Of a DNA stretch of 64,000 bases, positions 19,232 to 59,242 are shown in pieces (within the stretch, counting starts at the first letter, position 1; each line of letters starts with the position of its first letter). The position numbers were made by a program, and so were the translations under genes. Source of the stretch: Carboxylicivirga caseinilyticus. GTDB taxonomy: Bacteria; Bacteroidota; Bacteroidia; Bacteroidales; Marinilabiliaceae. The stretch covers positions 1 to 64,000 of the forward strand of contig JAFMVE010000006.1 of assembly GCA_025499705.1 (NCBI GenBank), written 5' to 3'. Below the pieces are notes generated by a model. That model was given only the letters and a program-made list of their open reading frames with translations, did no database searches and was not told the DNA's origin.

Positions 19232-21502
19232 TTAATATTTAATTACCACAAAATCTTTTTTGGTAAACACCTGACCATTATAATCACCAGTAAAAGTGTA
19301 ATAGTAAGTATCGGCTGGCAATATGTTCCCATCGTTATCCTTTCCATCCCACCATATTACTATATCACTACCTGTATTGTAATCACCAAGATTTTCAGTA
19401 TCATATATTAACATGCCCTTTTTGTTGAAGACTGCTAGCTTTTTATTACTTAAGTTCTCCGCACCTCCAATTTTGAAATAATCATTAATGCCATCTCCAT
19501 CTGGTGAAAAACCATTGGGAGCTGTTAATGGATTCTGCGTTATGGTGATTTCATCACTGATATAACAATCATCGCTGCTTTTTACAGTCCAGGTTAAATA
19601 ACTCGTTCCGGGGGGTATACCGAAAGCTGTATAAGTACTATCATCTGAAAATTGAATGATAACATTGGGATCGGAGCTTTCCCACCAAACTGTCATGCCA
19701 TCTTCCCAATCTTCTGGTTTCAACACAACATGGTCGACCAAATATATTGTGGTATCTGATCCTGCCGAAACATTCTCAGGCTCCTTTGTAAAGTAAAGCT
19801 TAAATACTGCAGAATCTCTACAGTAAAGATTTTCTTCATTAACAACCAACCATTGAACGGAAGCAGAATCAATTACAGCTGTTTGATTAAATGTAAAGTC
19901 TGATGTCGGTGATGAAAGATCAGAAAAAGTACCATCCTCTGAACTCCAGTGTCCACTTGTTGTGTTTTCTAAAATTTCGGCATTTAAAGGTGTCCAGTTT
20001 CCGCAGATGGTATCATAGGTTCCTGTCATTAGTTCCGGAATATAATCAACCACTACATTAAATGTTTCGCTTAATTCTGTTGAGCAACCTTTATTGTCTG
20101 TAATTGCGGTGAGTTGATAAGCTGTTGTTTCAGATGGCTCCAAAAATGTTTCAGTATTAATTGAATTAATATTGGCCGTTAACGTTTGTGCTCCATCAGT
20201 ATAAGTTAAAACCAGATCATAATATTCGCTTGTTGTTGCAGTGCGTAATAAAGCATTATTACCGGCACAGATAGCTGTGTCAGGGCTTAAAAGGTTTAAA
20301 GTTGGTGGCTCAACAAAGGTAATGTCAACGGTAGCTACATCACTACATCCGCCATTGTCTGCTAACCATGTTAATGTTTGTGCACCATAAACAGTAGATG
20401 AAGCTAAGGTTTTGGGATCATTATTATTTACAAAACTAACATTGGGATGAACTTGCCATGCTCCGGTTTCGCCTTCTTCTAAAGAAGCTTGCAGTTCATA
20501 ACCTTCGAGTTGACACCAATCATCTGCAAGGCCTGCAAATGGATTGGGTTTCTTATCAACAACGGTAGCTTCTCCATGCAAGCTGTCAACGTGTGCCTCA
20601 CACCCTCTTTGATCAACAACTTCGATTAGACTCCAGGATGTTTCTTCTGTTGCCTGTATTGAGATATTGTCTGCAAATGTTATACCTGTGCGAGTTTGCT
20701 GCAAAGAACCATTGGAAATGGTATATCTATAAGGAGATGTACCATTGGTTATTTCTGTTGTAACATTCAAAGAATAATTAGTTCCATCGTTCGAACAGAT
20801 AATCTGGTTACCACTAATTGTTGCATTTGGAGAACCCCATAAATCAACTTCAATTACATCAGTGGCTTTGCATGCGCCATTCTCTTCTGTTAATGTTAAG
20901 GTGTACAAACCCTTTGAATCTGCAATAAATATTGCATTCGGAATAGTGTTATTACCACCGCTAAAACTACCGGCACCCGATTCTTCTGTCCAATATATTA
21001 TATGATCAGGATCACTTAAGGTTGCATTTAATGGTGCAACATATCCACATTGGGGTGTGAAATTATCTGCGATTGGTGTTGGCATCTTATTAATATTAAG
21101 AGTCATTTTCCCATTAACATCTAATGAGCCATATCCATTATCACCTAAACTATATTTCCAGTCTGCTGCATTAATAGTATTATCAAAAACTTCAATTAAG
21201 GTAATTTCTGAAGTGTCGCTAATGTTTATTGTTGTTGTTGTCCAAACTCCATCAACTAAGTTGTTATCAAAGATGTTCTTATCAAGTTCAATTTGATATG
21301 AACTTCCTCCTGTTTCTTTATTGTCAATTCTATAAACTACCCCAAAAGGAGCTTCTCCTTCAAATAAAATTTTTAGTTCTGCTTTACCAATTTCGCAAGA
21401 ATCTGCATCTAAGCTAACAATAGTGGCAGTAGGTTGTGCAAAAAGGCTTATATAAGAAAGGCCCCAAAGGGCTAAAAACGTCCAAAGAATTTTCAACTTC
21501 AT
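19232..21502 (-). CDS. Large T9SS type B (CHU_C) surface protein
   Basis: The 756-aa exported protein has a signal peptide (MKLKILWTFLALWGLSYISL) and a series of Ig/PKD-like beta modules with paired Cys and repeated AICAGNNA-like words typical of gliding-adhesin repeats. The last 90 residues are the gliding-motility-associated CHU_C domain: APNGFSPDGDGINDYFKIGG, then WWDGKDNDGN, PADTYYYTF and the C-terminal KKDFVVIKY. This tail directs export by T9SS and surface retention (type B signal). It is smaller than SprB but has the same operon partner (PorP/SprF). The annotated start is the ATG at 21502; a TTG six bases earlier is possible. Confidence 0.88.
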   Translation of the reverse strand: MKLKILWTFLALWGLSYISLFAQPTATIVSLDADSCEIGKAELKILFEGEAPFGVVYRIDNKETGGSSYQIELDKNIFDNNLVDGVWTTTTINISDTSEITLIEVFDNTINAADWKYSLGDNGYGSLDVNGKMTLNINKMPTPIADNFTPQCGYVAPLNATLSDPDHIIYWTEESGAGSFSGGNNTIPNAIFIADSKGLYTLTLTEENGACKATDVIEVDLWGSPNATISGNQIICSNDGTNYSLNVTTEITNGTSPYRYTISNGSLQQTRTGITFADNISIQATEETSWSLIEVVDQRGCEAHVDSLHGEATVVDKKPNPFAGLADDWCQLEGYELQASLEEGETGAWQVHPNVSFVNNNDPKTLASSTVYGAQTLTWLADNGGCSDVATVDITFVEPPTLNLLSPDTAICAGNNALLRTATTSEYYDLVLTYTDGAQTLTANINSINTETFLEPSETTAYQLTAITDNKGCSTELSETFNVVVDYIPELMTGTYDTICGNWTPLNAEILENTTSGHWSSEDGTFSDLSSPTSDFTFNQTAVIDSASVQWLVVNEENLYCRDSAVFKLYFTKEPENVSAGSDTTIYLVDHVVLKPEDWEDGMTVWWESSDPNVIIQFSDDSTYTAFGIPPGTSYLTWTVKSSDDCYISDEITITQNPLTAPNGFSPDGDGINDYFKIGGAENLSNKKLAVFNKKGMLIYDTENLGDYNTGSDIVIWWDGKDNDGNILPADTYYYTFTGDYNGQVFTKKDFVVIKY

Positions 21503-21745
21503 CCCCAAAAGTTTAGTTTAATGTTTGTGTATCGGCGCTCCTTAAATCGCTTCTGGATGAACACTATAAGTCGTGTATACAAACATATATATAAATTAAC
21601 AAACGGCATTAAATTTTAACATAGCTATTACGGTGTTGATAAACAAAAAGATTCATTTAATCAAATTTATGCTTTTTTAAGGGGTTAATTATATGGGTTG
21701 TGAGAGCTGGTATAAGAATTATCGGATGCCTTATTGTTAAGTAAG

Positions 21746-22312
21746 TCAGGGTAACAAATCGGTTTTGTCATTTATATTGGCAAATAGGTTTGGGGTATCA
21801 ATCACAAAATCATTCATTGAAACAACCTTTAGTTGGCACGATTCGATAAACAATTGCATTTTGAGTTTCTTTTCAGTTAGTGCTTTTCTAATTTCTTCAA
21901 TCAGACTTTTATGATAGCAGGCAAAAAGAGGTTGCCTTTGTCCGTTTAAACTTGCGACAATGCAATTAATATCCTTATCTATTTGATTGATAAAATAGGC
22001 TACGGCTTTAGAAGTAATATTGGGCATATCACAGGTTGTAACAAATATCCATTCGTTGGATGAATGTACAAGTCCTTCATAAATACCAGAAAGAGGACCC
22101 AACTCATTGTAAGTGTCCTTTATTATAGGTAAATTAAACTGTTGGTAATCGTCAGAATTGGCGCTAATGAAAATCTCCTTACAGTTTGGCTCAACAGCAT
22201 TGATCGCGTATGTAATCATTCGCCTGCCATTGAATTTCATTAAGCCTTTATCCAACCCCATACGAGAGCTTTTGCCACCTGATAATATGAGTGCTGATAT
22301 GTTCTTTTTCAA
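21746..22312 (-). CDS. mobA: Molybdenum cofactor guanylyltransferase
   Basis: The 188-aa protein transfers GMP from GTP to Mo-molybdopterin, making the MGD cofactor. The nucleotide-binding motif LSGGKSSRMGLDKG spans about residues 10-23, TCDMPNI contains the metal-binding Asp, and the RQPLFACY segment is typical. It is divergent from the psrA-like gene, whose product needs bis-MGD. It is separate from the riboswitch-controlled moco operon 6 kb away, and no riboswitch is seen upstream of it. Confidence 0.92.
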   Translation of the reverse strand: MKKNISALILSGGKSSRMGLDKGLMKFNGRRMITYAINAVEPNCKEIFISANSDDYQQFNLPIIKDTYNELGPLSGIYEGLVHSSNEWIFVTTCDMPNITSKAVAYFINQIDKDINCIVASLNGQRQPLFACYHKSLIEEIRKALTEKKLKMQLFIESCQLKVVSMNDFVIDTPNLFANINDKTDLLP

Positions 22313-22444
22313 GGTGATGCGATTTTAGATATACAGATATTGGTTTGAAGATAATTTTTTGATTACTAAAACAAAAATAATGATCAGATTACCAGATTTA
22401 TATAAAAGAAAAAATTCGTTATTAAAATTAAGTCTAAATAGCAA

Positions 22445-22477
22445 TTGCCTCATACATAAAGATATCTGTATATTTTG
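22445..22477 (+). promoter_or_regulatory. Possible promoter of the psr-like operon
   Basis: TTG (22445-22447), 21 bases, then TATATTTTG (22469-22477). The -7 box has three rather than two bases between TA and TTTG, so it is an imperfect match. It ends 30 bp before the chosen ATG. Confidence 0.35.
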
Positions 22478-22507
22478 CTATATATTTATCTATACAATTC
22501 TCAAACA

Positions 22508-24751
22508 ATGCAACTGATGGGGAAAAGTAGAAGAGATTTTATTAAAATTTCGGCCTTAGGAACAGCGGGAGCTGTAGTTGGGTCGAAATATTTGATGGCT
22601 CAGAATCAGCAACTGATCAAAGAAAATCCACAAGGGCCATGGAAAATGGCTGAAGATCTGGAACGAACACCTACTTATTGTGAAGTTTGTTTCTGGAAAT
22701 GCGCCGGTTGGACTTATAAAAATAAGGATGGCCAGATTCAAAAAATTACCGGTAACGATGATGATCCGAACAGTAACGGTCGTTTTTGTCCCAGAGGAAC
22801 TGGTGGTGTGGGTATGTATTATGATGAGGACCGGCTAAAACATCCACTAATAAGGGTAAAAGATTCTGATGGAAATCAAACGTACAAACAGGCTTCTTGG
22901 GATGAAGCTTTTGATTTTATTAGTGAGAGACTTAATGAAGTAATTGAAGATCATGGCCCTGAGTGTATTGCTTTGTTTACGCATGGCTCTGGAGGAACGT
23001 ATTTCGGTAACCTGCTTAAAGCTTTGGGCTCTCAAAATATTACCGCACCATCTTATGCCCAGTGCAGAGGCCCGCGTGAAGTGGGATTCATAACCACCTT
23101 TGGTGAAGGTCTTAGCTCTCCGGAGCCAACTGACATCAGGGATACAAAATGTATGGTTCTGATTGGTTCGCACATTGGTGAAAATATGCATAATGGGCAT
23201 GTGCAGGAGATGTCTGACGCCATTGATAAAGGGGCAACAATTATTACAGTTGATCCTCGCTTTTCAACTGCTGCCAGTAAGTCAAAATATTGGTTGCCCA
23301 TCAAACCAAGTACCGATTTAGCCTTGTTACTGGCATGGATTCATGTATTAATATACGAAGAACGATACGATAAAAAATACGTTGAGCAGTATACCTATGG
23401 TTTTGATCAGCTGAAAGCTCACGTTAAAAATATGACGCCCGAATGGGCTTACGGTATTACTACCATCAAACCACAGGTTATCAGAGAAACAGCTCGTGAA
23501 ATGGCAAATGCTTCTCCTGCCACAATTGTTCATCCAGGAAGACATGTTACCTGGTATGGAGATGACACACAGCGCTTAAGGGCTGTAGCAATTTTAAATG
23601 CGTTATTAGGTTCCTGGGGACGCCGTGGTGGATTCTATATTCCGGATAAAGCCAAAGTTCCGGGTGTACCACATCCTCCTTATCCAACCCCAAGAAGAAC
23701 CTGGCGGGATGCAATGGAAGGTAAGTATGAACTGGCTGATCTGGCGTTAGCCAATGGAGTTTGTGATGCCACGATTCCAAGTGCCCGATTTGATTGTAGT
23801 ATTAAAGCCTGGATTGTTAATGGTACCAACCTGATTGAAACTCTTCCAAACAGACCAAATACTTTAGAGGCGATTAATAACCTTGAATTATTGGTTGTGG
23901 TTGATACTATGCCGATGGAGATTACAGGTTATGCTGATGTTGTACTTCCTGAGTGTACTTATCTCGAGCGTTACGATTCCCTTCGGATAACACAGCACCG
24001 CGAACCTACTATTGCCTTACGAATGCCAGCTATGAAACCAATGTATGAGTCAAAACCTGCATGGTGGATGGCGAAAAATCTTGCCGACAGAATGGGTAAA
24101 GGAGATTATTTCCCATTTGATTCAATTGAGGAGGAATTGGATTATCAATTAAAGAAAGTTGGCTTGTCATTAGAAGAGATGCAGCGAATTGGAGTGAAGA
24201 AAATGGAGCGACCTTATGATGATTTGTATTATCATGATGGAGAAGAAATCGAATTCAATACTAATACAGGTAAGATTGAACTGTACTCAACATCTCTTGA
24301 AGAATATGGTTTTGATCCAATGCCAAAGTATACAGCACATCCCGAACCACCTTCAGGCTATTACCGTCTGATTTATGGTCGTGCACCCATGCATACTTTT
24401 TCACGCACTGCCAATAATCCAAATCTTACAGATTTGATGGATGAAAATACGGTATGGGTTAATCCTAAAGTAGCAAAAGAGTGGGGACTGAAAAATGGTC
24501 AGGAAGTGTATTTGCAAAACCAGGATAATGTAGTTTCATCATTTCCTATCAAAGTTAGAGTTACAGAACGAATCAGATGGGATTCGGTTTACATGGTCCA
24601 TGGATTCGGACATGCCAAGAAGCAACTGAGTCGTGCTTATGGAAGAGGTGCCAGTGATGCCCAGTTAATTACGAATATTATGATGGACCCTATTATGGGA
24701 GGCACCGGAATGAGAGGAAATTTTGTAACATTCAACTTTGATAAAGCTTAA
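22508..24751 (+). CDS. Psr/Phs-type molybdopterin oxidoreductase catalytic subunit
   Basis: The 747-aa protein is a DMSO-reductase-family enzyme of the polysulfide/thiosulfate reductase group. A Tat signal (SRRDFIK, 7-13) sends the folded protein out. Cys58, Cys61, Cys65 and Cys94 are the ligands of the N-terminal 4Fe-4S cluster, and Cys187 in SYAQCRGPREVGF sits at the molybdenum-ligand position. The C-terminal molydopterin-binding beta-barrel is intact. With the next two genes it forms a PsrABC/PhsABC-like complex at the membrane; substrate (polysulfide, thiosulfate or tetrathionate) cannot be fixed from sequence. I used the ATG at 22508; 22517 is equally possible and would still keep the Tat motif. 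Confidence 0.88.
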   Translation: MQLMGKSRRDFIKISALGTAGAVVGSKYLMAQNQQLIKENPQGPWKMAEDLERTPTYCEVCFWKCAGWTYKNKDGQIQKITGNDDDPNSNGRFCPRGTGGVGMYYDEDRLKHPLIRVKDSDGNQTYKQASWDEAFDFISERLNEVIEDHGPECIALFTHGSGGTYFGNLLKALGSQNITAPSYAQCRGPREVGFITTFGEGLSSPEPTDIRDTKCMVLIGSHIGENMHNGHVQEMSDAIDKGATIITVDPRFSTAASKSKYWLPIKPSTDLALLLAWIHVLIYEERYDKKYVEQYTYGFDQLKAHVKNMTPEWAYGITTIKPQVIRETAREMANASPATIVHPGRHVTWYGDDTQRLRAVAILNALLGSWGRRGGFYIPDKAKVPGVPHPPYPTPRRTWRDAMEGKYELADLALANGVCDATIPSARFDCSIKAWIVNGTNLIETLPNRPNTLEAINNLELLVVVDTMPMEITGYADVVLPECTYLERYDSLRITQHREPTIALRMPAMKPMYESKPAWWMAKNLADRMGKGDYFPFDSIEEELDYQLKKVGLSLEEMQRIGVKKMERPYDDLYYHDGEEIEFNTNTGKIELYSTSLEEYGFDPMPKYTAHPEPPSGYYRLIYGRAPMHTFSRTANNPNLTDLMDENTVWVNPKVAKEWGLKNGQEVYLQNQDNVVSSFPIKVRVTERIRWDSVYMVHGFGHAKKQLSRAYGRGASDAQLITNIMMDPIMGGTGMRGNFVTFNFDKA

Positions 24752-24763
24752 GGAGAGACAGCT

Positions 24764-25297
24764 ATGAGATATGCAATGGCCGTAGATACAAAGAAATGTG
24801 TGGGCTGCAGCGACTGTGTTGTAGCCTGTCAGACAGAAAACAATGTACCCATAGGATATTGTCGTGATTGGATTGTAGAAGTCACCGATGGTACTTATCC
24901 TCAACTGGAACTGGAATATCGTTCGGAGCGATGCAATCACTGCGAGAATTCGCCATGTGTGCGTTGTTGCCCAACAGGAGCCAGTCATTATAGTGATGGT
25001 GGAATCGTTTTAGTGGATCATGATAAATGTATTGGTTGTGGAGCCTGTATAGCTTCATGTCCTTACGATGCCCGTTACACTCATCCAAAGGGATATGTTG
25101 ATAAATGTACTTTTTGTGAGCATCGCGTAAAGCATGGTCAGGATCCTGCATGTGTTGCGGTATGTCCTACCAAGTGTATGTATTTTGGCGATTTGGATGA
25201 TCCTAATTCAGATGTCAGCAAGGTGATAAAGAAGCGTAAATACAAAACCTTAATCCCTGAAGCCGGAACGAATCCTCAATTGTACTTTTTGATTTAA
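24764..25297 (+). CDS. 4Fe-4S electron-transfer subunit (PsrB/PhsB-like)
   Basis: The 177-aa iron-sulfur protein has four cysteine groups, the first CVGCSDCVVAC (Cys12, 15, 18, 22), the third CIGCGACIASC. This is the DmsB/PsrB pattern that carries electrons between the quinol-oxidising anchor and the catalytic subunit. It has no own signal, as expected if exported with the Tat partner. A good Shine-Dalgarno-like AAGGAGAG lies 7 bases before the ATG, unusual for this phylum. The gap to the catalytic gene is 12 bp. Confidence 0.9.
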   Translation: MRYAMAVDTKKCVGCSDCVVACQTENNVPIGYCRDWIVEVTDGTYPQLELEYRSERCNHCENSPCVRCCPTGASHYSDGGIVLVDHDKCIGCGACIASCPYDARYTHPKGYVDKCTFCEHRVKHGQDPACVAVCPTKCMYFGDLDDPNSDVSKVIKKRKYKTLIPEAGTNPQLYFLI

Positions 25298-25318
25298 CAA
25301 ACCATTCATAAAAATATT

Positions 25319-26260
25319 ATGAGAGAAGAATTAATTGTAAGCGGAAGAATGAATCCTCATATCGATCCGCAATTACACATCTGGGAATGGCAAATACCTG
25401 CCTACCTGTTTTTGGGTGGTTTGGCGGCAGGTATTCTGTTTTTTGCCGGATACTATTTTATTAAAGGAAAGAGTGAAGAATATCCAACAGCAGTTAAACT
25501 GGCGCCTATTTTCGTACCTGTGTTTCTGGCTTTGGGTTTGTTTTTTCTGTTTCTTGATTTAAAGCATAAACTCTATTTCTGGCGGTTGTATACTGCCATT
25601 AAACTGGAATCGCCCATGAGCTGGGGAGCTTGGACATTGATGATTATAACTCCTTTATCAATGGTTTGGGCAGCACTTCATATCAAATCGTTATTCCCAA
25701 AGTGGGATTGGAAATTTGACTTTGTGAAAGACATTATCAAATGGCTCGAGGATTATAAAACACCTGTTGCATGGGCTATGATGATACTGGCAGTGATACT
25801 TGGAATTTATACAGGTATTTTACTTTCGGCTTTTAATGCAAGGCCGTTGTGGAATACATCCATTCTGGGGCCTCTATTCCTGGTATCTGGATTATCTACC
25901 GGAGCTGCAGCTATAATTATTATGTCAAAGTCATCTGCCGAACGACATATGTTTGCCAAGATAGATCTTGTATTGATAGCAGTGGAACTATTCCTGATCA
26001 TACACATGTTTATGGGGTTCAGGGCCAGTACGCAGGTTCAGATTGATGCGGCAAGTATGTTTCTGGGAGGACAGTTTACAGCTCCTTTCTGGGTATTTGT
26101 AGTCGGTTTGGGATTGCTAGTTCCGGCATCGCTTGAAGTAATGGAACTTCGAAATAAGAAAATTCATTACATGGTAGCTCCGGCTTTGGTGTTGTTTGGA
26201 GGTTTATTATTCCGTTTTATAATGGCTTATGCCGGACAAATGAGTCGCTGGCTTTATTAA
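25319..26260 (+). CDS. NrfD/PsrC-type membrane anchor
   Basis: The 313-aa protein has eight to nine hydrophobic segments and belongs to the NrfD/PsrC family that binds menaquinol and anchors the catalytic and Fe-S subunits. The N-terminal WEWQIPAYLFLGGLAAGILF is the conserved first helix, and RPLWNTSILGPLFLVSGLSTG is in the family core. It completes a three-subunit respiratory reductase. Confidence 0.9.
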   Translation: MREELIVSGRMNPHIDPQLHIWEWQIPAYLFLGGLAAGILFFAGYYFIKGKSEEYPTAVKLAPIFVPVFLALGLFFLFLDLKHKLYFWRLYTAIKLESPMSWGAWTLMIITPLSMVWAALHIKSLFPKWDWKFDFVKDIIKWLEDYKTPVAWAMMILAVILGIYTGILLSAFNARPLWNTSILGPLFLVSGLSTGAAAIIIMSKSSAERHMFAKIDLVLIAVELFLIIHMFMGFRASTQVQIDAASMFLGGQFTAPFWVFVVGLGLLVPASLEVMELRNKKIHYMVAPALVLFGGLLFRFIMAYAGQMSRWLY

Positions 26261-26328
26261 TTTGAAAAAAGAAAATAACTAATAAGGCTATTTATCATTG
26301 ATAATAGTAATCAGCTAAAAAAAGTATT

Positions 26329-26853
26329 ATGAGTGAAGATCGTAGTAGAAAATACATCAATCCATACATAGGTGGTGTTTTACTTGGCTTTGTATTACTG
26401 GCCGCATTTTTCTTCTCAGGTCGAGGACTGGGAGCCAGTGGTGCTATAAAAAGTGCAGTAGTTAAATCAGTTGAAACCGTGGCTCCGACTCATGTTGAAA
26501 CAACGGATTTTTATAAAGGTTATAAAGAAACACATCCCGGCGGACCATTGAAAGATTGGTTGGTTTGGGAAATGTTGGGTGTTTTGGTTGGAGGTTTTAT
26601 CTCGGGTGCCATTGCAGGCCGATTAAAATTTAAGGTTGAACATAGTCCTAAGATTACAAGCAAAACCCGAATTATTTTTGCTGTTATCGGAGGTATTTTA
26701 TTTGGTTTTGGATCGCAGCTGGGAAGAGGTTGTACCAGTGGATCAGCTTTGTCAGGAATGGCTGTGTTATCTCTCGGAGGTTTTATTACCATGGCTTTTA
26801 TTTTCGGAACAGCCTTTGCTTTAGCTTATATCGCACGTAAATTATGGATTTAA
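26329..26853 (+). CDS. YeeE/YedE half-transporter, first unit
   Basis: The 174-aa protein has about four membrane helices and the YeeE/YedE signature GRGCTSGSALSG with Cys135. In the full-length thiosulfate transporter TsuA, equivalent cysteines in the pore pass thiosulfate through the membrane. Here the protein is half-size and an independent second half follows 13 bp later, so the two probably form a heterodimer equal to one TsuA. A periplasmic loop (about 40-75) is longer than usual. It sits in a sulfur-respiration operon, so thiosulfate or another sulfur anion is the likely substrate. Confidence 0.85.
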   Translation: MSEDRSRKYINPYIGGVLLGFVLLAAFFFSGRGLGASGAIKSAVVKSVETVAPTHVETTDFYKGYKETHPGGPLKDWLVWEMLGVLVGGFISGAIAGRLKFKVEHSPKITSKTRIIFAVIGGILFGFGSQLGRGCTSGSALSGMAVLSLGGFITMAFIFGTAFALAYIARKLWI

Positions 26854-26866
26854 AAACTAAGTAATC

Positions 26867-27457
26867 ATGGGACCATTAGTTGTATACGAATATATTTCAG
26901 CCAACACTAATTTGTTAATGGCTTTTATCATTGGAATTGGCTTTGGCTTTGTTTTGGAAAGAAGTGGATTTTCTTCGTCAAGAAAACTGGCAGGTATGTT
27001 TTACGGTTATGATACAACCGTACTTAAGGTGTTTTTTACAGCGGCTATTGTAGCTATGCTTGGCTTGTTGTTTTTCAGTTTGTTTGGCTGGATCGACCTG
27101 AGTCTTGTTTATATTAATCCAACCTTCTTATGGTCGGCTATGGTCGGCGGAGCTGTTATGGGAGCCGGTTTTATTACAGGAGGTTTCTGTCCGGGTACAG
27201 CTTTCTGTGCCTTATCAATTGGTAAGCTGGATGCTCTTGCATTTATTGGAGGGTTGGTAATTGGTGTATTAATCTTTACTGAAGGATTCCCAATGTGGGA
27301 AGGATTGTTCTATGCTGAAAACATGGGAACTCCAACAATCAACCAGTTATTAGGAATCTCTCGCGGAATCTTTGGTTTATTGTTGATATTAGTTGCATTG
27401 GGAATGTTTTTTGTTGGTGAGTGGGCAGAACGTAAATTTCCCAGAGAAGAGTATTAA
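26867..27457 (+). CDS. YeeE/YedE half-transporter, second unit
   Basis: The 196-aa protein has four to five helices and the second YeeE/YedE signature, GGFCPGTAFCALSIG, with Cys108 and Cys114. It starts GFGFVLERSGFSSSRK after the first helix, a typical family stretch. With the preceding gene it probably rebuilds a complete sulfur-compound channel. Spacing and order make one transcript with the psr-like genes almost certain. Confidence 0.85.
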   Translation: MGPLVVYEYISANTNLLMAFIIGIGFGFVLERSGFSSSRKLAGMFYGYDTTVLKVFFTAAIVAMLGLLFFSLFGWIDLSLVYINPTFLWSAMVGGAVMGAGFITGGFCPGTAFCALSIGKLDALAFIGGLVIGVLIFTEGFPMWEGLFYAENMGTPTINQLLGISRGIFGLLLILVALGMFFVGEWAERKFPREEY

Positions 27458-27475
27458 TCTGTAAAATTGGATGTT

Positions 27476-28096
27476 ATGAAGATGAGAATTAAACTGGCAT
27501 TGGCAATTATTCCTTTGGGAATTATCATTGCTGCAGTGCCTGAGAATACAACAAAACCATACAAGCTTACAGCAGGTCAGATGTTGGAAGAGGTGAAAGA
27601 AGGGATACAGTTTGTAACGACCGATCAGGTGGCTGATATGATTATTCAGAAAGATCCGTCTTTGCAGTTGATTGATGTACGTGATCAGGATAGTTACGAT
27701 AAATTTCATTTGCCAGGAGCAATAAATATTCCTTTGGCTGATTTGTTATCGCCAGAAAATGAGGATTATCTGAATCAAGATGTAAAAATGAACGTTTTTT
27801 ATTCGAACGGTTCTACCAGTGCAAATGAAGCATGGATGATTACCCGACAGTTGGGTTACTTGAATAATTATGTGATGCAAGGTGGGTTGAATTATTATGC
27901 TGAAACAATAATGAATCCGCAAAAGCCTGCCTCTACAAGTCCGGATGATGAATTTGCGCGTTACGATTTCCGTAAAGGAGCCAGTGCTGCCTTAGGTGGC
28001 GGTAATTTAAGTGCTGCAACTGAAGATGCACCGGTGGCGCCTAAACCTGTTATTAAGAAAGCTGGCAAGAAGAAAAGAGTGGCTGGTGGATGTTAA
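27476..28096 (+). CDS. Rhodanese-like protein with inactive site and C-terminal GGC tail
   Basis: The 206-aa protein has an N-terminal membrane/signal helix (about 5-21) and a rhodanese domain (about 45-155) recognisable by LIDVRDQDSYDKFHLPGAIN followed by IP. The active-site loop, normally Cys-Arg-x-Gly-x-Arg, reads FYSNGSTS; the catalytic Cys is replaced by Tyr109 or Ser110 depending on alignment. A lysine-rich, proline-containing tail ends in AGGC, and that last Cys206 is the only Cys visible near the end. Sulfur transfer may use this mobile C-terminal cysteine or be lost; both are inference. I chose the ATG at 27476 rather than a TTG nine bases earlier. Confidence 0.75.
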   Translation: MKMRIKLALAIIPLGIIIAAVPENTTKPYKLTAGQMLEEVKEGIQFVTTDQVADMIIQKDPSLQLIDVRDQDSYDKFHLPGAINIPLADLLSPENEDYLNQDVKMNVFYSNGSTSANEAWMITRQLGYLNNYVMQGGLNYYAETIMNPQKPASTSPDDEFARYDFRKGASAALGGGNLSAATEDAPVAPKPVIKKAGKKKRVAGGC

Positions 28097-28154
28097 AATT
28101 CATGTTTAAGGAATAAGTCTTTAACCAAAAGATTAGTTTATTTGTTAGTTAAAT

Positions 28155-28265
28155 AAGTCTCCGAGCTGTTAAACCTGTAAAATGGTTTATTAGCCGATGG
28201 GTTAAACCGGAAACAGTTTGGCCTCCCGATCCCTGGATAGGGATAATTTGGAAAGGAGAGATTAG
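28155..28265 (+). promoter_or_regulatory. Moco (molybdenum cofactor) riboswitch aptamer
   Basis: The sequence CTCCGAGC ... GCCGATGG ... CCGG ... GGCCTCCCGATCC ... GGAAAGGAGAG contains the conserved words of the Moco RNA motif in correct order. P1: TCTCC (28158-28162) with GGAGA (28255-28259). P2: GCTGTTAAACC (28165-28175) with GGTTTATTAGC, one mismatch. Distal hairpin ATCCC-TGGATA-GGGAT. It lies between the rhodanese-like gene and the moco biosynthesis operon. I cannot separate Mo-cofactor from tungsten-cofactor specificity. Confidence 0.85.
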
Positions 28266-28280
28266 ATAAAGCATTATAAG

Positions 28281-28324
28281 ATGCCTGATCTCTGCGTGTA
28301 CATGGAGGTCAGGCATTTTTTTTT
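28281..28324 (+). terminator. Riboswitch-controlled intrinsic terminator
   Basis: ATGCCTGA (28281-28288) pairs with TCAGGCAT (28309-28316), extended by inner pairs, and nine Ts follow. It ends 13 bases before the first codon of the mobB-like gene, so it can switch off the whole moco operon. Bases 28285-28293 also pair with 28257-28265, an antiterminator that overlaps the aptamer P1 stem. Confidence 0.85.
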
Positions 28325-28337
28325 ATGAAGTAATTTA

Positions 28338-28877
28338 ATGGCAAAACGAAACCTAAATAATTGGTTATTAATTTCTGGTAATGGAAGGCATGTTGGGAAG
28401 ACATGGTTGGCTGAACGTTTCATTCACCAATTATCGGAGTCGGAAAATGTGGTTGCCATAAAAATAGCTTCGCATATGCATCAATTGGGTCCGGAAGTGA
28501 AATGGCTCGACGGTGGACCTGATAAATGGATGATAGGGGAAGAGACCGATACAAAATCAGATAAGGATAGTGTGCGGATGCTAAAAGCCGGAGCTGAAAA
28601 GGTCTTTTATGCACAAATGAATGATGATATATATAATCTGGATCAATTGAATTATCTGGATAAGGTATTAACCGGTGAAGAACTGATCATTTGTGAATCT
28701 GCTTCAATAGGGAATTTTATCAATCCTGGTGCAGCATTTTATGTGTATGATCCAAACAACATAGCAAAGAATTGTAACTGGAGTTTTTCATATCAGGCTC
28801 TGGAGTCCTTGCAATCAAAAATAGTAAATCCGCCAAAAAAAATACGATGGGAAAAGAACAGCTGGATAATCAACTGA
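28338..28877 (+). CDS. mobB: MobB-like P-loop protein
   Basis: The 179-aa protein starts with a P-loop GNGRHVGKT (14-22) after a beta strand NWLLIS. It has the general layout of MobB, the GTP-binding partner of MobA in molybdopterin-guanine dinucleotide synthesis. After the P-loop it differs from E. coli MobB, so the symbol is tentative. It overlaps moeA by 31 bp, showing tight coupling. Its ATG lies just past the riboswitch terminator. Confidence 0.65.
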   Translation: MAKRNLNNWLLISGNGRHVGKTWLAERFIHQLSESENVVAIKIASHMHQLGPEVKWLDGGPDKWMIGEETDTKSDKDSVRMLKAGAEKVFYAQMNDDIYNLDQLNYLDKVLTGEELIICESASIGNFINPGAAFYVYDPNNIAKNCNWSFSYQALESLQSKIVNPPKKIRWEKNSWIIN

Positions 28878-30046
28878 TATCAGTTGAGGAGGCAAAGGTG
28901 ATTGTTGAGAAAGTAGTGAAGCCTTTAAAGACCGAGTCAGTTTCATTAACAGATGCCCAAGGCAGGTTTCTGGCTGAGGATGTTTTATCAACCGTTTATA
29001 TCCCTCCGTTTAATCGTTCTGCAATGGATGGATTTGCCTGTCGCAAGGAAGATCTTAAGAGACCACTGTCGCTAATTGGTACCTTGGCTGCCGGAGATTC
29101 AACAAAATATCAAATCAAAGAGGGTGAATGTGTAAGAATTATGACAGGAGCTTCAGTTCCTGATGGTGCTGATACGGTAATAATGGTTGAAAATACCAGA
29201 GAGAATGATGGGAAGGTTGAGTTTTTGAAAGATGATACCAAATCGAATATCAGTCCTAAAGGGGAGGATTTAAAACCGGGTGATTTGCTGGTTTGCAAAA
29301 ATACTCTTCTGAGGTCATCTCACATTGCAGCTTTGGCATCCTCAGGTATAGCAAAAGTTGAGGTATATCAAAAGGCATCTGTTGCAATTATTTCAACAGG
29401 AAGCGAATTAATTGAACCTGGATCAGAATTACTGGAAGGTCAGATTTATAATAGTAATGGTTACCAGTTAAAAGCCCGTTTAAAAGAGTTAGGCTTTGAT
29501 GCCCTTAATTATGGTGTCAAGAAAGATGATTATCAAACTCTGAAAGAAGAAATCGAATCGGCTGTTACGAACCATGATTTGCTTGTTGTGACAGGTGGTG
29601 TTTCGGTAGGCGATTATGATTATATTCCGGCTATTGTAAAAGAATTGGGTTTTGAAATTCATTTCTCAAAGATGAGCGCCAAGCCCGGAAAGCACACCCT
29701 GTTTGCCTCAAAAGAAGACAAATACATTTTGGGCTTACCGGGTAATCCTGTTTCTACTTTTATTCAGTTTGAAGAATGCGGGCAGTGGATTTTGCATGCC
29801 ATGTGTAATCGTTGCTTTCAACCTTTGCGAATTGAGATGGAAATAGCCTATCATCACCGAAGAAAAAGAAGTGATAGATTCGAACTTTTTCCTGTATGCA
29901 TCGCTGGAGATGGTCAGATACAAAGTTTAACCTATCATGGTTCAGCGCATATGCATGCTCTTACTCAAGCCAATGCTTTGATGGAAATACCTGAAGGTAT
30001 TAATGAGTTAAATCCCGGAGATAAAGTTTATGTTAGACCCCTATAA
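28847..30046 (+). CDS. moeA: Molybdopterin molybdotransferase
   Basis: The 399-aa protein inserts molybdate into adenylylated molybdopterin. The MoeA signature PFNRSAMDGFA lies at about 54-64, the GASVPDGADTV segment follows, and the MogA-like domain has TGGVSVGDYDYIP; GLPGNPVS is the conserved turn before domain IV. It overlaps the MobB-like gene upstream by 31 bp and moaA downstream by 17 bp. Full length for the family. Confidence 0.93.
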   Translation: MGKEQLDNQLISVEEAKVIVEKVVKPLKTESVSLTDAQGRFLAEDVLSTVYIPPFNRSAMDGFACRKEDLKRPLSLIGTLAAGDSTKYQIKEGECVRIMTGASVPDGADTVIMVENTRENDGKVEFLKDDTKSNISPKGEDLKPGDLLVCKNTLLRSSHIAALASSGIAKVEVYQKASVAIISTGSELIEPGSELLEGQIYNSNGYQLKARLKELGFDALNYGVKKDDYQTLKEEIESAVTNHDLLVVTGGVSVGDYDYIPAIVKELGFEIHFSKMSAKPGKHTLFASKEDKYILGLPGNPVSTFIQFEECGQWILHAMCNRCFQPLRIEMEIAYHHRRKRSDRFELFPVCIAGDGQIQSLTYHGSAHMHALTQANALMEIPEGINELNPGDKVYVRPL

Positions 30047-30830
30047 CAGACATATCACTTACCTGCGCATCTCCGTAACAGACCGGTGTAATTTGCGTTG
30101 CCGTTATTGTATGCCCGAAGAAGGGGTTGATTTAATGGCACATGAAGATATTCTTCGGTTTGAAGAAATTGAGCAACTTGTTAAGTTGTCTGTCGATAAT
30201 GGAGTTACCAAAATAAGACTGACAGGTGGAGAGCCTTTAGTTCGCAAAGGTATTGTTGAATTAGTTGAGATGATCGCTAGAATACCCGGTGTTGAAGATC
30301 TGTCGATGACGACCAATGGAATTCTGCTGGATAAATATGCATCTGATTTAAAAAAGGCCGGACTCAAAAGAGTGAATATAAGTCTGGACACAATGGATGC
30401 TGAAAAATATAACTACATCACCAGGGGTGGAGATATTAATAAGGTTTTCAAAGGAATTGATGTTGCTCAGAAAGTTGGTTTGGAACCAGTAAAGATTAAC
30501 TGCGTCGTTCGTAATTCGTCAGACGAACCTGATGCTCTGGCTGTAAAGGAATTCTGTGAAGCAAACAATTTATCTATTCGTTATATCCATCAAATGAATC
30601 TCGAGGATGGTACTTTCTCAAAAGTAGATGGTGGTGATGGTGGTAATTGCGCTAGTTGTAACCGACTTCGTTTAACAGCCGATGGCTCATTTAAACCCTG
30701 CTTATTTAATGAGTTGGGATATAACATTAAAGAGTTTGGGCAAGAAAAGGCATTTCAGATGGCTATCAAAAATAAACCATTGGCAGGAACACGCAATAAA
30801 TCAGGACGTTTTAATCAGATTGGAGGATAG
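30030..30830 (+). CDS. moaA: Short GTP 3',8-cyclase (MoaA) with internal deletion
   Basis: The 266-aa radical-SAM protein converts GTP to the cyclic intermediate of molybdopterin synthesis. The radical cluster triad Cys20, Cys24, Cys27 (CNLRCRYC), TGGEPLVR, and the second cluster Cys207, Cys210, Cys224 (spacing 2 and 13) are all present, and the C-terminal Gly-Gly required by MoaA is kept (QIGG). Usual MoaA is about 320-340 aa. The missing 55-60 residues lie between the TIM-barrel strand (RYIHQMNL) and the second cluster, and the C-terminal region is also shorter. Ends match, so this is a compact variant and not a frameshift. Confidence 0.88.
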   Translation: MLDPYNRHITYLRISVTDRCNLRCRYCMPEEGVDLMAHEDILRFEEIEQLVKLSVDNGVTKIRLTGGEPLVRKGIVELVEMIARIPGVEDLSMTTNGILLDKYASDLKKAGLKRVNISLDTMDAEKYNYITRGGDINKVFKGIDVAQKVGLEPVKINCVVRNSSDEPDALAVKEFCEANNLSIRYIHQMNLEDGTFSKVDGGDGGNCASCNRLRLTADGSFKPCLFNELGYNIKEFGQEKAFQMAIKNKPLAGTRNKSGRFNQIGG

Positions 30831-30832
30831 AA

Positions 30833-31282
30833 ATGGCAAATAAATTTTCGCATATCGATGATAAAGGTAAAGCTAACATGGTGGATGTTGGTGATAAACC
30901 AATTCAAAAAAGAACTGCTAAAGCCAGTGGTTTTATCAGCCTGAATAAGGAAACGGTGGGACTGATTACCGAGAATAATATGAAAAAGGGTGATGTGCTA
31001 ACGGTTGCTGAAATAGCCGGAATTCAGGCTGCAAAGCGAACCTATGAACTCATTCCTTTATGTCACACAGTAATGCTAACGAAAGTGGCTGTTACCTGTC
31101 ATCTTCAGGCAGATGGAGTGAAGGTTGTATCTGAGGTGAAATGCAGTGTCGAAACGGGTGTTGAAATGGAAGCTTTAACGGCGGTAAATGTTGCTTTGCT
31201 AACAATTTATGATATGTGTAAAGCCGTAGACAAAGAAATGGTCATGTCAGATATCAAACTGGATTTGAAAACAAAAGAATAA
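30833..31282 (+). CDS. moaC: Cyclic pyranopterin monophosphate synthase
   Basis: The 149-aa protein acts after MoaA to give cyclic pyranopterin monophosphate. The N-terminal FSHIDDKGKANMVDVGDK and the catalytic stretch KRTYELIPLCHTVML are diagnostic, as are the VETGVEMEALTAV residues. It follows moaA by two bases. Neither moaD nor moaE is in this operon, so MPT synthase must be elsewhere. Confidence 0.95.
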   Translation: MANKFSHIDDKGKANMVDVGDKPIQKRTAKASGFISLNKETVGLITENNMKKGDVLTVAEIAGIQAAKRTYELIPLCHTVMLTKVAVTCHLQADGVKVVSEVKCSVETGVEMEALTAVNVALLTIYDMCKAVDKEMVMSDIKLDLKTKE

Positions 31283-31286
31283 CCGT

Positions 31287-34531
<3,245 letters not shown>

Positions 34532-57589: not shown

Positions 57590-57625
57590 AAAGAGGCTGT
57601 ATCTAACGAGATACAGCCCTTTTCT
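57590..57625. terminator. Terminator between amt and aspartokinase
   Basis: GGCTGTATCT (57595-57604), loop AACG, AGATACAGCC (57609-57618), then CTTTT on the plus strand. On the minus strand the T-tract is poorer. Confidence 0.8.
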
Positions 57626-58995
57626 TATTTAAAGAATTCATCGTGAATAGCTGCAATTGCCTTTTCGCGATCATCAGATGATACAATAAAATAAGATGCA
57701 ACTGATGATGCACCTGAAATAATCATCTGAACATTAATGCTTTTTTGAGCCAGTGCCATAAACAGTTTACCTGAAATACCTGGTTTCTCCAACATTCCTT
57801 CTCCAACCACTGCTATTGTTGATACCTTATCAATAGTTATGATTTCAGTAATGGCTGAAAGATTTAATTCCTCAACTATTTTAAATGCTTTTCTGATATC
57901 ACTGACAGAAACCAATACATTAATTACAATCTGAGAGGTTATCACAGATTTAATATTAATACCAGCGTTATCCAGAGCCGAAGTTACTTTTGCTAAAACA
58001 CCCTGTTTTAAACCTACTCCTGCACCTCTGAGCTTAAGAATGCAAAAATCGTTACTGTAGGTAACACTCTTTAAAATACTTTCGCTTATTTCTTCAGAAC
58101 CGCAAATAGAGGTACCCGGAATAATCTTGTTTTTGAAAGTGTCGATGTTACTTATATTAATGGGAATACCAACTTCTTTAAGAGGTTCAACAGTTCGGGG
58201 ATGTAATATTCCAGCTCCAAAATAGGAAAGTTCTGCTGCTTCAGAATACGAAAGACTTTTAATGCGTTTGGGATTATTTACCAGTTTTGGATCGGCACTC
58301 ATAAAACCATCAACATCTTTCCAAACATCTAATGATTCAGCTTCGAGGCAGCGTGCAATTGCTGCAGCTGAATAATCGCTTCCACCTCGTCCAAGCAGGG
58401 TGACTTTACCTTCTGGCGAAACTCCATAAAATCCCGGAACAATGTATATCTTATTTTCTTTTAATTTTTCCTGAACCAATTTGGCAGATACTTCAAAGTT
58501 AACTGTTGCATTTCCGAATTCACCGTCAGTTATGAGTGGCATATCTTCCGGAAGAGCCTCTACTGCATCTATGCCATTGGCTTGTAGAATGGAAGTAAGA
58601 ACCAATGAGCTTAAACGTTCACCGTAGCTTAATACTACGTCTTCAACAAATTCTGGAACATCGCCTATATAATGAATGCCGGTTAGGTATCTACCTAATT
58701 GATTTATTCGATCCTCAACTTTTGACATTGTCTGATGACGCCATTGTTCATCATCGAAATTTTCAAATATACTTTCTTCCTTAATTTCTCTAAGAAACTT
58801 TTTCAGGACGTCAATTTGTGATTCGTCCTTTTTAACTTCTGCTAATGATTGTATCAGGTGGTTGGTAATTCCATAAAAAGCTGAAACAACAATTACCATG
58901 GGTCTGTCATATGCTTTTATTACTCGCACAAGTTTTTGGATATCTTCTTTGCGTTTAAGGTTAGATCCGCCAAATTTGGCAACCACTTTTTTCAT
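57625..58995 (-). CDS. lysC: Aspartate kinase
   Basis: The 456-aa enzyme phosphorylates aspartate, first step for lysine, threonine and methionine. The N-terminal KFGGSNLK motif (usually KFGGTS), the GRGGSDYSAAAIA substrate site and DVDGFMSADP are present. Two ACT domains follow (about 300-456). It is monofunctional, with no homoserine dehydrogenase attached. A SAM-I riboswitch lies upstream, pointing to a methionine-branch enzyme. The symbol is by function; the paralogue group is not resolved. Confidence 0.93.
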   Translation of the reverse strand: MKKVVAKFGGSNLKRKEDIQKLVRVIKAYDRPMVIVVSAFYGITNHLIQSLAEVKKDESQIDVLKKFLREIKEESIFENFDDEQWRHQTMSKVEDRINQLGRYLTGIHYIGDVPEFVEDVVLSYGERLSSLVLTSILQANGIDAVEALPEDMPLITDGEFGNATVNFEVSAKLVQEKLKENKIYIVPGFYGVSPEGKVTLLGRGGSDYSAAAIARCLEAESLDVWKDVDGFMSADPKLVNNPKRIKSLSYSEAAELSYFGAGILHPRTVEPLKEVGIPINISNIDTFKNKIIPGTSICGSEEISESILKSVTYSNDFCILKLRGAGVGLKQGVLAKVTSALDNAGINIKSVITSQIVINVLVSVSDIRKAFKIVEELNLSAITEIITIDKVSTIAVVGEGMLEKPGISGKLFMALAQKSINVQMIISGASSVASYFIVSSDDREKAIAAIHDEFFK

Positions 58996-59079: not shown

Positions 59080-59119
59080 ATTCGAAATATCTGAAGTATC
59101 ATATTAAAAGGTTTAAATT

Positions 59120-59212
59120 CATTATCTTCCTAACTGGAATCAGGTTTTGGCACCTGCCATTGGTGGTTGCCAGAAGTTCTGCGAGCCTGTCTCTCCCTTC
59201 TTCTTAATAAAC
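59120..59212 (-). promoter_or_regulatory. SAM-I (S-box) riboswitch aptamer
   Basis: Read on the minus strand, the S-box landmarks occur in order: TTATTAAGAAGAAGGGAGAG (P1 strand, then kink-turn), CAGGCTCGCAGAA, TTCTGGCAACC (P3 end), GGTGCCAAAACCTG (P4), and GATAA. P1 forms between TTATT (59206-59210) and GATAA (59122-59126). GGCAACC is at 59165-59171 and GGTGCCAA at 59147-59154. It precedes lysC by about 125 nt, as expected for methionine-linked control. Confidence 0.85.
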
Positions 59213-59242
59213 TCAAACTAATTCAAATGAATTGAATCTCTA

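Follow-up and report, generated by a model that had tools for sequence, protein, structure and literature searches.

The RNA at 28147-28324 of a 64,000-nucleotide stretch of Carboxylicivirga caseinilyticus DNA (contig JAFMVE010000006.1, positions 1 to 64,000; the window) is a P3-less member of the molybdenum cofactor (Moco) riboswitch family and very probably operates as a transcription OFF switch, with the molybdenum cofactor as its presumed ligand. By computation we find family membership, a covarying aptamer, a terminator, the complementarity of an antiterminator, an order of folding energies during transcript growth, and an operon of cofactor synthesis genes. The RNA itself belongs to a known family. 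The larger find is the regulon that it opens, which deserves attention: across the phylum, the RNA points to uncharacterised uptake genes, both for molybdate and for the cofactor itself.

The aptamer and its relatives

A cmscan search of the 64 kb on both strands matched 28147-28274 of the forward strand to RF01055 (Molybdenum) with 57.2 bits (gathering score 36) and an E-value of 4.6e-11. The match spans the whole model (1-135). The initial annotation had proposed a Moco-family aptamer here, and the significant Rfam match bears this out; its start, placed at 28155, moves to 28147. A search of the whole genome (5.65 Mb) found no second RF01055 copy. The region 28147-28330 (184 nt) folds with -61.7 kcal/mol versus a mean of -41.4 for its shuffles (z -4.8), and none of 200 shuffles was as stable.

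The named stems P1, P2, P4, and P5 are all present, with 27 of their 29 pairs standard. The 5' strand of P1 (28158-28162) pairs with 28255-28259. P2 (28165-28194) joins 28165-28175 to 28184-28194 with 10 of 11 pairs standard. P4 (28199-28224), which shows covariation, joins 28199-28209 to 28214-28224, again with 10 of 11 pairs standard, and carries the GNRA tetraloop as GAAA at 28210-28213. P5 (28225-28251) is closed by 28225-28226 with 28250-28251 and holds a variable hairpin. The P3 hairpin of the RF01055 model is absent from the window RNA. Also absent is the CUAA strand in P2, which we take to be the mark of the tetraloop receptor; P2 has instead an eight-nucleotide loop, UGUAAAAU. Among 67 RNAs, the P2 loop follows the CUAA pattern in 56, is UGUAAAAU or a one-base variant in four (the window, G003, G005, and G256), and is neither in seven. 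The P2 receptor is not strictly defining, as two GAAA members without it are described in Regulski 2008 (PMC2408646).

Covariation was assessed on a set reduced from these 67 RNAs. Removal began with 13 RNAs (four that have P3, three that carry long inserts, two below threshold, L049 for having no P1 3' strand, L004 and L025 as near-duplicates, and L010 as divergent) and went on to 14 from outside the order, leaving 40 P3-less relatives. In their aptamer stems, 88.4% of cells were paired versus 68.5% after shuffling and 34-53% when the partner strand was slid, and double changes numbered 253 versus 88 in shuffles. P1 had changes on both sides in three of its five pairs.

The E. coli moaA RNA (RF01055, PMC2408646) shares with the window RNA the stems P1, P2, P4, and P5, the GAAA tetraloop, the conserved words of the junctions, and moa/moe genes downstream; unlike it, the window RNA has neither P3 nor the CUAA strand in P2. 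The window RNA ends in a transcription terminator, whereas the E. coli RNA was modelled with a ribosome site in P1 (PMC2408646), and TaRTLEt (PMC12121620) reports transcription termination by the E. coli RNA too. The host of the window RNA lies outside the groups named in the abstract of Regulski 2008 (PMC2408646). The nearest prior case is Caldithrix abyssi, in which a Moco RNA lies near a MOT1-type molybdate transporter in the moa locus (PMC5317091). Like the window, it places a Moco RNA at a moa locus outside the Proteobacteria and Clostridia; it differs in belonging to another phylum, and the passages of that report concerned with it hold no terminator model.

The terminator and the competing antiterminator

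The aptamer is followed by an intrinsic terminator on the same strand (28278-28324), consisting of a hairpin (28278-28319) of 17 pairs with a loop of 8, and then a T run (28316-28324). A scan of 21500-33000 gave no overall excess of terminator-like sites, with six versus 8.3 in shuffles; the next best of the six has 7 pairs.

An antiterminator can form at 28257-28293 of the forward strand. The pairing of AGAGATTAG (28257-28265) with CTGATCTCT (28285-28293) over nine positions, one of them G-U, is exactly as claimed in the initial annotation, and the helix proves longer than was seen there, with five further inner pairs between 28271-28275 and 28280-28284. With this spacing and up to three mismatches allowed, the expected number of such word pairs in the window is 0.05; a second hit there is the same site on the opposite strand. 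When the P1 3' region was shuffled, the duplex energy was equalled or bettered in 2 of 300 shuffles and the run length in 7 of 300.

The two folds exchange rank as the transcript grows. In forced-fold ensembles, the antiterminator is ahead of P1 by 3.5-6.2 kcal/mol in transcripts ending at 28294-28310, the sign of the preference flips between ends 28314 and 28316, and at 28330 the fold with P1 and the terminator is ahead by 4.6 kcal/mol. Given this order of fold energies, a ligand that held P1 in the early transcript window would commit the RNA to termination; and since the finished terminator is energetically favoured, the ON state would depend on kinetics.

In the proposed mechanism, binding of the cofactor would close P1 and leave the 5' arm of the terminator free, so that the 17-bp hairpin would form ahead of the T run and halt transcription of the mobB-like, moeA, moaA, moaC, and MOSC-mog genes. 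With no cofactor, 28257-28265 would pair with 28285-28293 as soon as these are transcribed, the helix being extended by the inner pairs, and this antiterminator would hold the terminator back until polymerase has moved beyond it. The OFF switch proposed in the initial annotation is supported by the family membership, the gene context, the terminator, and the folding of the growing transcript. From these we infer that the RNA binds a ligand, that this is the molybdenum rather than the tungsten cofactor, and that the switch is functional in vivo. The greater stability of the completed terminator would also suit a constitutive or protein-controlled attenuator, in which the terminator works and the aptamer is unresponsive to ligand, but the aptamer core is conserved and covarying, as an unused aptamer would not be kept, and we consider such an attenuator highly improbable.

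How far the OFF-switch layout extends to related RNAs was judged from their own pairings. In G003 and G005, both close relatives, the antiterminator has a 10-bp version. The 10-bp pairings of G202 and G201 use another register and are matched in energy by none of 300 shuffles, and the 9-10 bp pairings of G349 and G775 fail the 5% level in shuffles. A strong hairpin and U run lie within 75 nt in 26 of the 67 RNAs, and the pairings of these 26 average -10.2 kcal/mol at their own loci versus -7.8 across loci (one-sided p 0.012). Six of the 26, three of them in the genus of the window, are at or below 2% in energy shuffles. For 11 of the 26, the complementarity to P1 is equalled by more than 25% of shuffles, and the antiterminator layout is therefore not general.

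In the four closest relatives, the outer arms of the antiterminator are nearly invariant, with G-U changes only, and one inner pair is changed on both sides; the arms of G003, G005, and G022 are almost invariant, the contig of G022 ending within the region. Because the arms hardly vary in these relatives, the antiterminator is unproven by covariation, and its support comes from shuffles and folding energies. Of the covariation that the initial annotation sought in P1 and in the antiterminator arms, the first is seen strongly, along with the other aptamer stems, and of the second there is little.

The first open reading frame called starts inside the matched stretch in 11 of 59 RNAs, which suggests translation control at those 11. 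At four loci of the genus's sister group (L003, L004, L005, and L008), a terminator-like hairpin is visible by eye between the rhodanese gene and the RNA; after the RNA no hairpin was found at these loci, and a TauE permease follows it.

Upstream of the aptamer, a possible -7 promoter element, TTTATTTG (28137-28144, forward strand), has one mismatch to TAnnTTTG, which we take to be the -7 promoter consensus. Exact copies of TAnnTTTG lie upstream of 21 of 64 related RNAs, versus a mean of 3.3 and a largest value of 12 in shuffles; when one mismatch is allowed, little excess is left (49 versus 38.8). A good part of the related RNAs seem, from these motifs, to start at promoters of their own. For the window RNA itself the promoter call is weak, and a promoter scan of 21500-33000 showed no overall excess over shuffles.

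Genes at the window locus

The RNA is located upstream of Moco synthesis genes, the context expected of a Moco riboswitch. The first gene that it would control (28338-28877, forward strand, as are the four that follow) encodes a MobB-like P-loop protein of 179 aa, with a Pfam MobB score of 21.6 bits, under the cut-off of 26.6. Next are moeA (28847-30046), moaA in a compact 266-aa form (30030-30830; TIGR02666 289.1 bits, cut-off 284.05), moaC (30833-31282), and a gene for a MOSC domain fused to a MogA/MoaB-type domain (31287-32216). The compact MoaA does not attain the usual model length of 336 positions ahead of the C-terminal CxxC...C motif, and the same form occurs in many Bacteroidales and in metagenome-assembled genomes labelled Delongbacteria and Hydrogenedentes.

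Upstream of the RNA are genes for a PhsA-like enzyme, an FeS protein, an NrfD-like protein, two Sulf_transp (YeeE-type) proteins, and a rhodanese. The PhsA-like molybdopterin oxidoreductase (22475-24751, forward strand), a consumer of the cofactor that scores below the equivalog cut-off, accounts for the genome's single PF01568 match. A mobA-like gene (21746-22312, reverse strand) scores below the cut-offs of the NCBIfam MobA models. Elsewhere in the window, a SAM riboswitch (RF00162, 57.5 bits) lies at 59117-59213 on the reverse strand, upstream of an apparent aspartate kinase gene (57625-58995), named by eye.

Molybdenum or tungsten cofactor

P3 was absent from 58 of the 176 RNAs in Regulski 2008 (PMC2408646), and of 19 organisms with such RNAs 17 had tungsten genes, so that sensing of the tungsten cofactor (Tuco) was proposed for these members. 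The missing P3, overlooked in the initial annotation, would by that proposal mark the window RNA as a tungsten-cofactor candidate. The proposed role of P3 has rested since 2008 on this correlation in 19 organisms (PMC2408646). The same report relied on E. coli genetics, which pointed to Moco as the ligand and against closely related analogues; it states that direct binding could not be demonstrated, owing to the instability of Moco.

To set the window RNA among its relatives, we used a survey that found the RNA in 10 of 60 relatives, 33 of 393 genomes of an order sample, and 19 of 395 of a phylum sample, giving 58 genomes once overlaps were removed. Weaker matches in G396, G496, and G705 were dropped, and the first-look filters can miss RNAs. 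On reading the sequences, 54 of the 58 genomes had RNAs without P3 and four had RNAs with it (G427, G509, G594, and G757).

The genome of the window has no match to AFOR (PF01314) and none to WtpA (TIGR03730) at E 0.001, and it has two ModA proteins over the cut-off. By eye, none of its three PF12849 matches resembles TupA: one is a short secreted protein, another a regulator of the LysR type, and the third a membrane protein of 558 aa. TupA we take to be a PF12849 member bearing TTTS. The look for TupA through PF12849 was crude and covered 27 of the 45 genomes without AFOR and WtpA. It comprised 31 matches (30 of the 37 listed, and the third of the window genome), judged by their opening stretches and a motif, and at least one entry (L092) was a neighbouring protein instead. 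Across the survey, AFOR and above-cut-off WtpA occur in the same 13 genomes, all P3-less, and neither occurs in 41 of the 54 P3-less genomes or in any of the four with P3. AFOR is no commoner with the RNA than without it in the order sample (13 of 34, G396 counted, versus 137 of 359; Fisher p 1.0), its 393 genomes being taken as the same 393 as in the RNA search. In all 13 genomes with both markers, WtpA is on another contig than the RNA, some of these contigs being short. Tungsten can enter enzymes other than AFOR.

Like the P3-less variants proposed to sense Tuco (PMC2408646), for which terminator-type platforms are known, the window RNA has no P3; it differs in that its genome yielded neither AFOR nor WtpA. 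Sensing of the tungsten cofactor, for which the absent P3 and the 17 of 19 organisms speak, is thus opposed here by the lack of marker matches beside two ModA proteins, by the even distribution of AFOR, by the 41 marker-less P3-less genomes, and by the separate contigs of WtpA and RNA. It is not supported by the AFOR, WtpA, and PF12849 searches, the last within its 27 of 45 marker-less genomes, and we regard it as improbable. In the surveyed genomes, loss of P3 appears to follow lineage more than tungsten use. With two ModA proteins and neither marker here, and with both markers missing from 41 of 54 P3-less genomes, Moco is the likelier ligand of the window RNA.

An intermediate or derivative could be sensed in place of Moco, namely molybdopterin or Mo-MPT before or after GMP attachment. 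Gene context does not distinguish these from Moco, and MobA-like genes occur close to the window operon as well as to three of the import operons described below; the E. coli genetics of Regulski 2008 (PMC2408646), which favour Moco over close analogues, make this somewhat unlikely. As to Moco and Tuco, the window supplies a clear example of an RNA without P3 whose genome gave no AFOR or WtpA match, and 40 further such cases come from the survey, so that the question is open to a reporter test.

First genes of the regulon and candidate molybdate importers

The next gene downstream of the RNA was readable in 56 of the 58 genomes, the contigs ending in G022 and G151; small unassigned or opposite-strand reading frames were passed over in G005, G256, G362, and G757. 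In 13 of the 56, genes for cofactor synthesis follow the RNA directly. The first gene encodes a TauE/TSUP permease in 23 (one representative matched PF01925 with E 4.9e-33, the remainder being assigned by BLAST), MOT1 (PF16983) in one, and a TonB receptor or S-like protein in 15, with a CMD gene ahead in G775. In four genomes a CMD-family small protein and a chromate-type transporter come first, as at L155:4185-5013, where they precede moaA. The CMD/chromate-type loci have a Moco RNA variant with the words CCTGCC and TTTGCAAAGGAG (G484, G570, G574, G610, and G657).

ModA is over the cut-off in 10 of the 13 genomes with synthesis genes first versus 2 of the 43 with transporter-like genes first (p 4.7e-7, not corrected for kinship), and within the window's own family in three of three versus one of five. 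Among the TauE-first genomes, 21 of 23 are without ModA over the cut-off, and 8 of 23 have WtpA instead. The TauE/TSUP permeases, exemplified by the first gene after the Moco RNA at L124:9133-9861, are candidate molybdate importers that may replace ModABC. No report linking TauE/TSUP to molybdate was found among the entries listed by the literature searches, one of which was noisy.

A candidate import system for the cofactor

The best MoaA (TIGR02666) match reaches at least 240 bits in 46 of the 58 genomes with the RNA and at most 77 in the other 12 (G087, G250, G355, G356, G416, G473, G546, G638, G646, G771, G775, and G807). These MoaA-less genomes are 90-99% complete and belong to six families; in four of these families, other genomes carry both the RNA and MoaA. 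Each of the 12 encodes at least one PF01568 enzyme over the cut-off. A TonB receptor and/or an S-like protein follows the RNA in every one of the 12, versus 4 of the 44 other readable genomes (G153, G329, G392, and G570; p 3.3e-9, not corrected for kinship), a count that leaves out the TonB receptors several genes off in G003, G006, and G164. The position of the RNA next to a TonB/ECF-like system in every MoaA-less, molybdoenzyme-encoding genome leads us to predict import of Moco or molybdopterin.

The system consists of S-like, T-like, TonB receptor, and THEP1-like NTPase genes at Moco RNAs (L160:4131-7878, L154:6784-9867, L142:8136-9866, and L150:389-4114). The S, T, and NTPase parts are separate or form one fused chain (G250, G356, and G153). 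G087, at a contig end, and G355 have the TonB receptor alone within the stretch examined, and G356 has the fused S-T-NTPase gene beside a TonB receptor on the other strand. The S-like protein, whose structure was predicted with pLDDT 89 and pTM 0.85, had no significant Foldseek match, an unrelated symporter ranking first (E 0.25). The closest plausible folds for it are those of ECF S components, TmRibU ranking second (E 0.95, prob 0.94, TM 0.52/0.60), and against Pfam it has a sub-threshold ABC_cobalt match. For the T-like part no Pfam family was found. The NTPase part, presumably THEP1, matches PF03266 and the solved NTPases 1ye8 and 2i3b; in a Foldseek search with the fused chain, this part alone fell under E 0.001. 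The names S, T, and ECF are our own reading of these proteins.

We give about an even chance to a broader role of the Moco RNA in Bacteroidota that would include salvage. MoaA-less genomes with molybdoenzymes would import Moco or molybdopterin through the TonB receptor and the ECF-like transporter, the TauE (TSUP) permeases would be the missing molybdate importers, and the P3-less aptamer would sense Moco, so that P3 would not select between Moco and Tuco. We know of no earlier bacterial Moco importer, and the import system, if real, would be the first. The literature searched, to which most subscription papers were external, yielded no study of bacterial Moco or molybdopterin import; a genome note on the Gram-positive Desulfitobacterium applies the term "molybdopterin import cluster" to three genes, with no detail in the part concerned (PMC4511579).

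In G250, G356, and G775 the system has MobA-like genes as neighbours, as expected if Mo-MPT were imported and GMP then added inside the cell. A MoeA label on a further protein, G484_8, was rejected, the protein being MobA-like by sequence, and other short "MoeA" entries of about 200 aa are likewise MobA-like.
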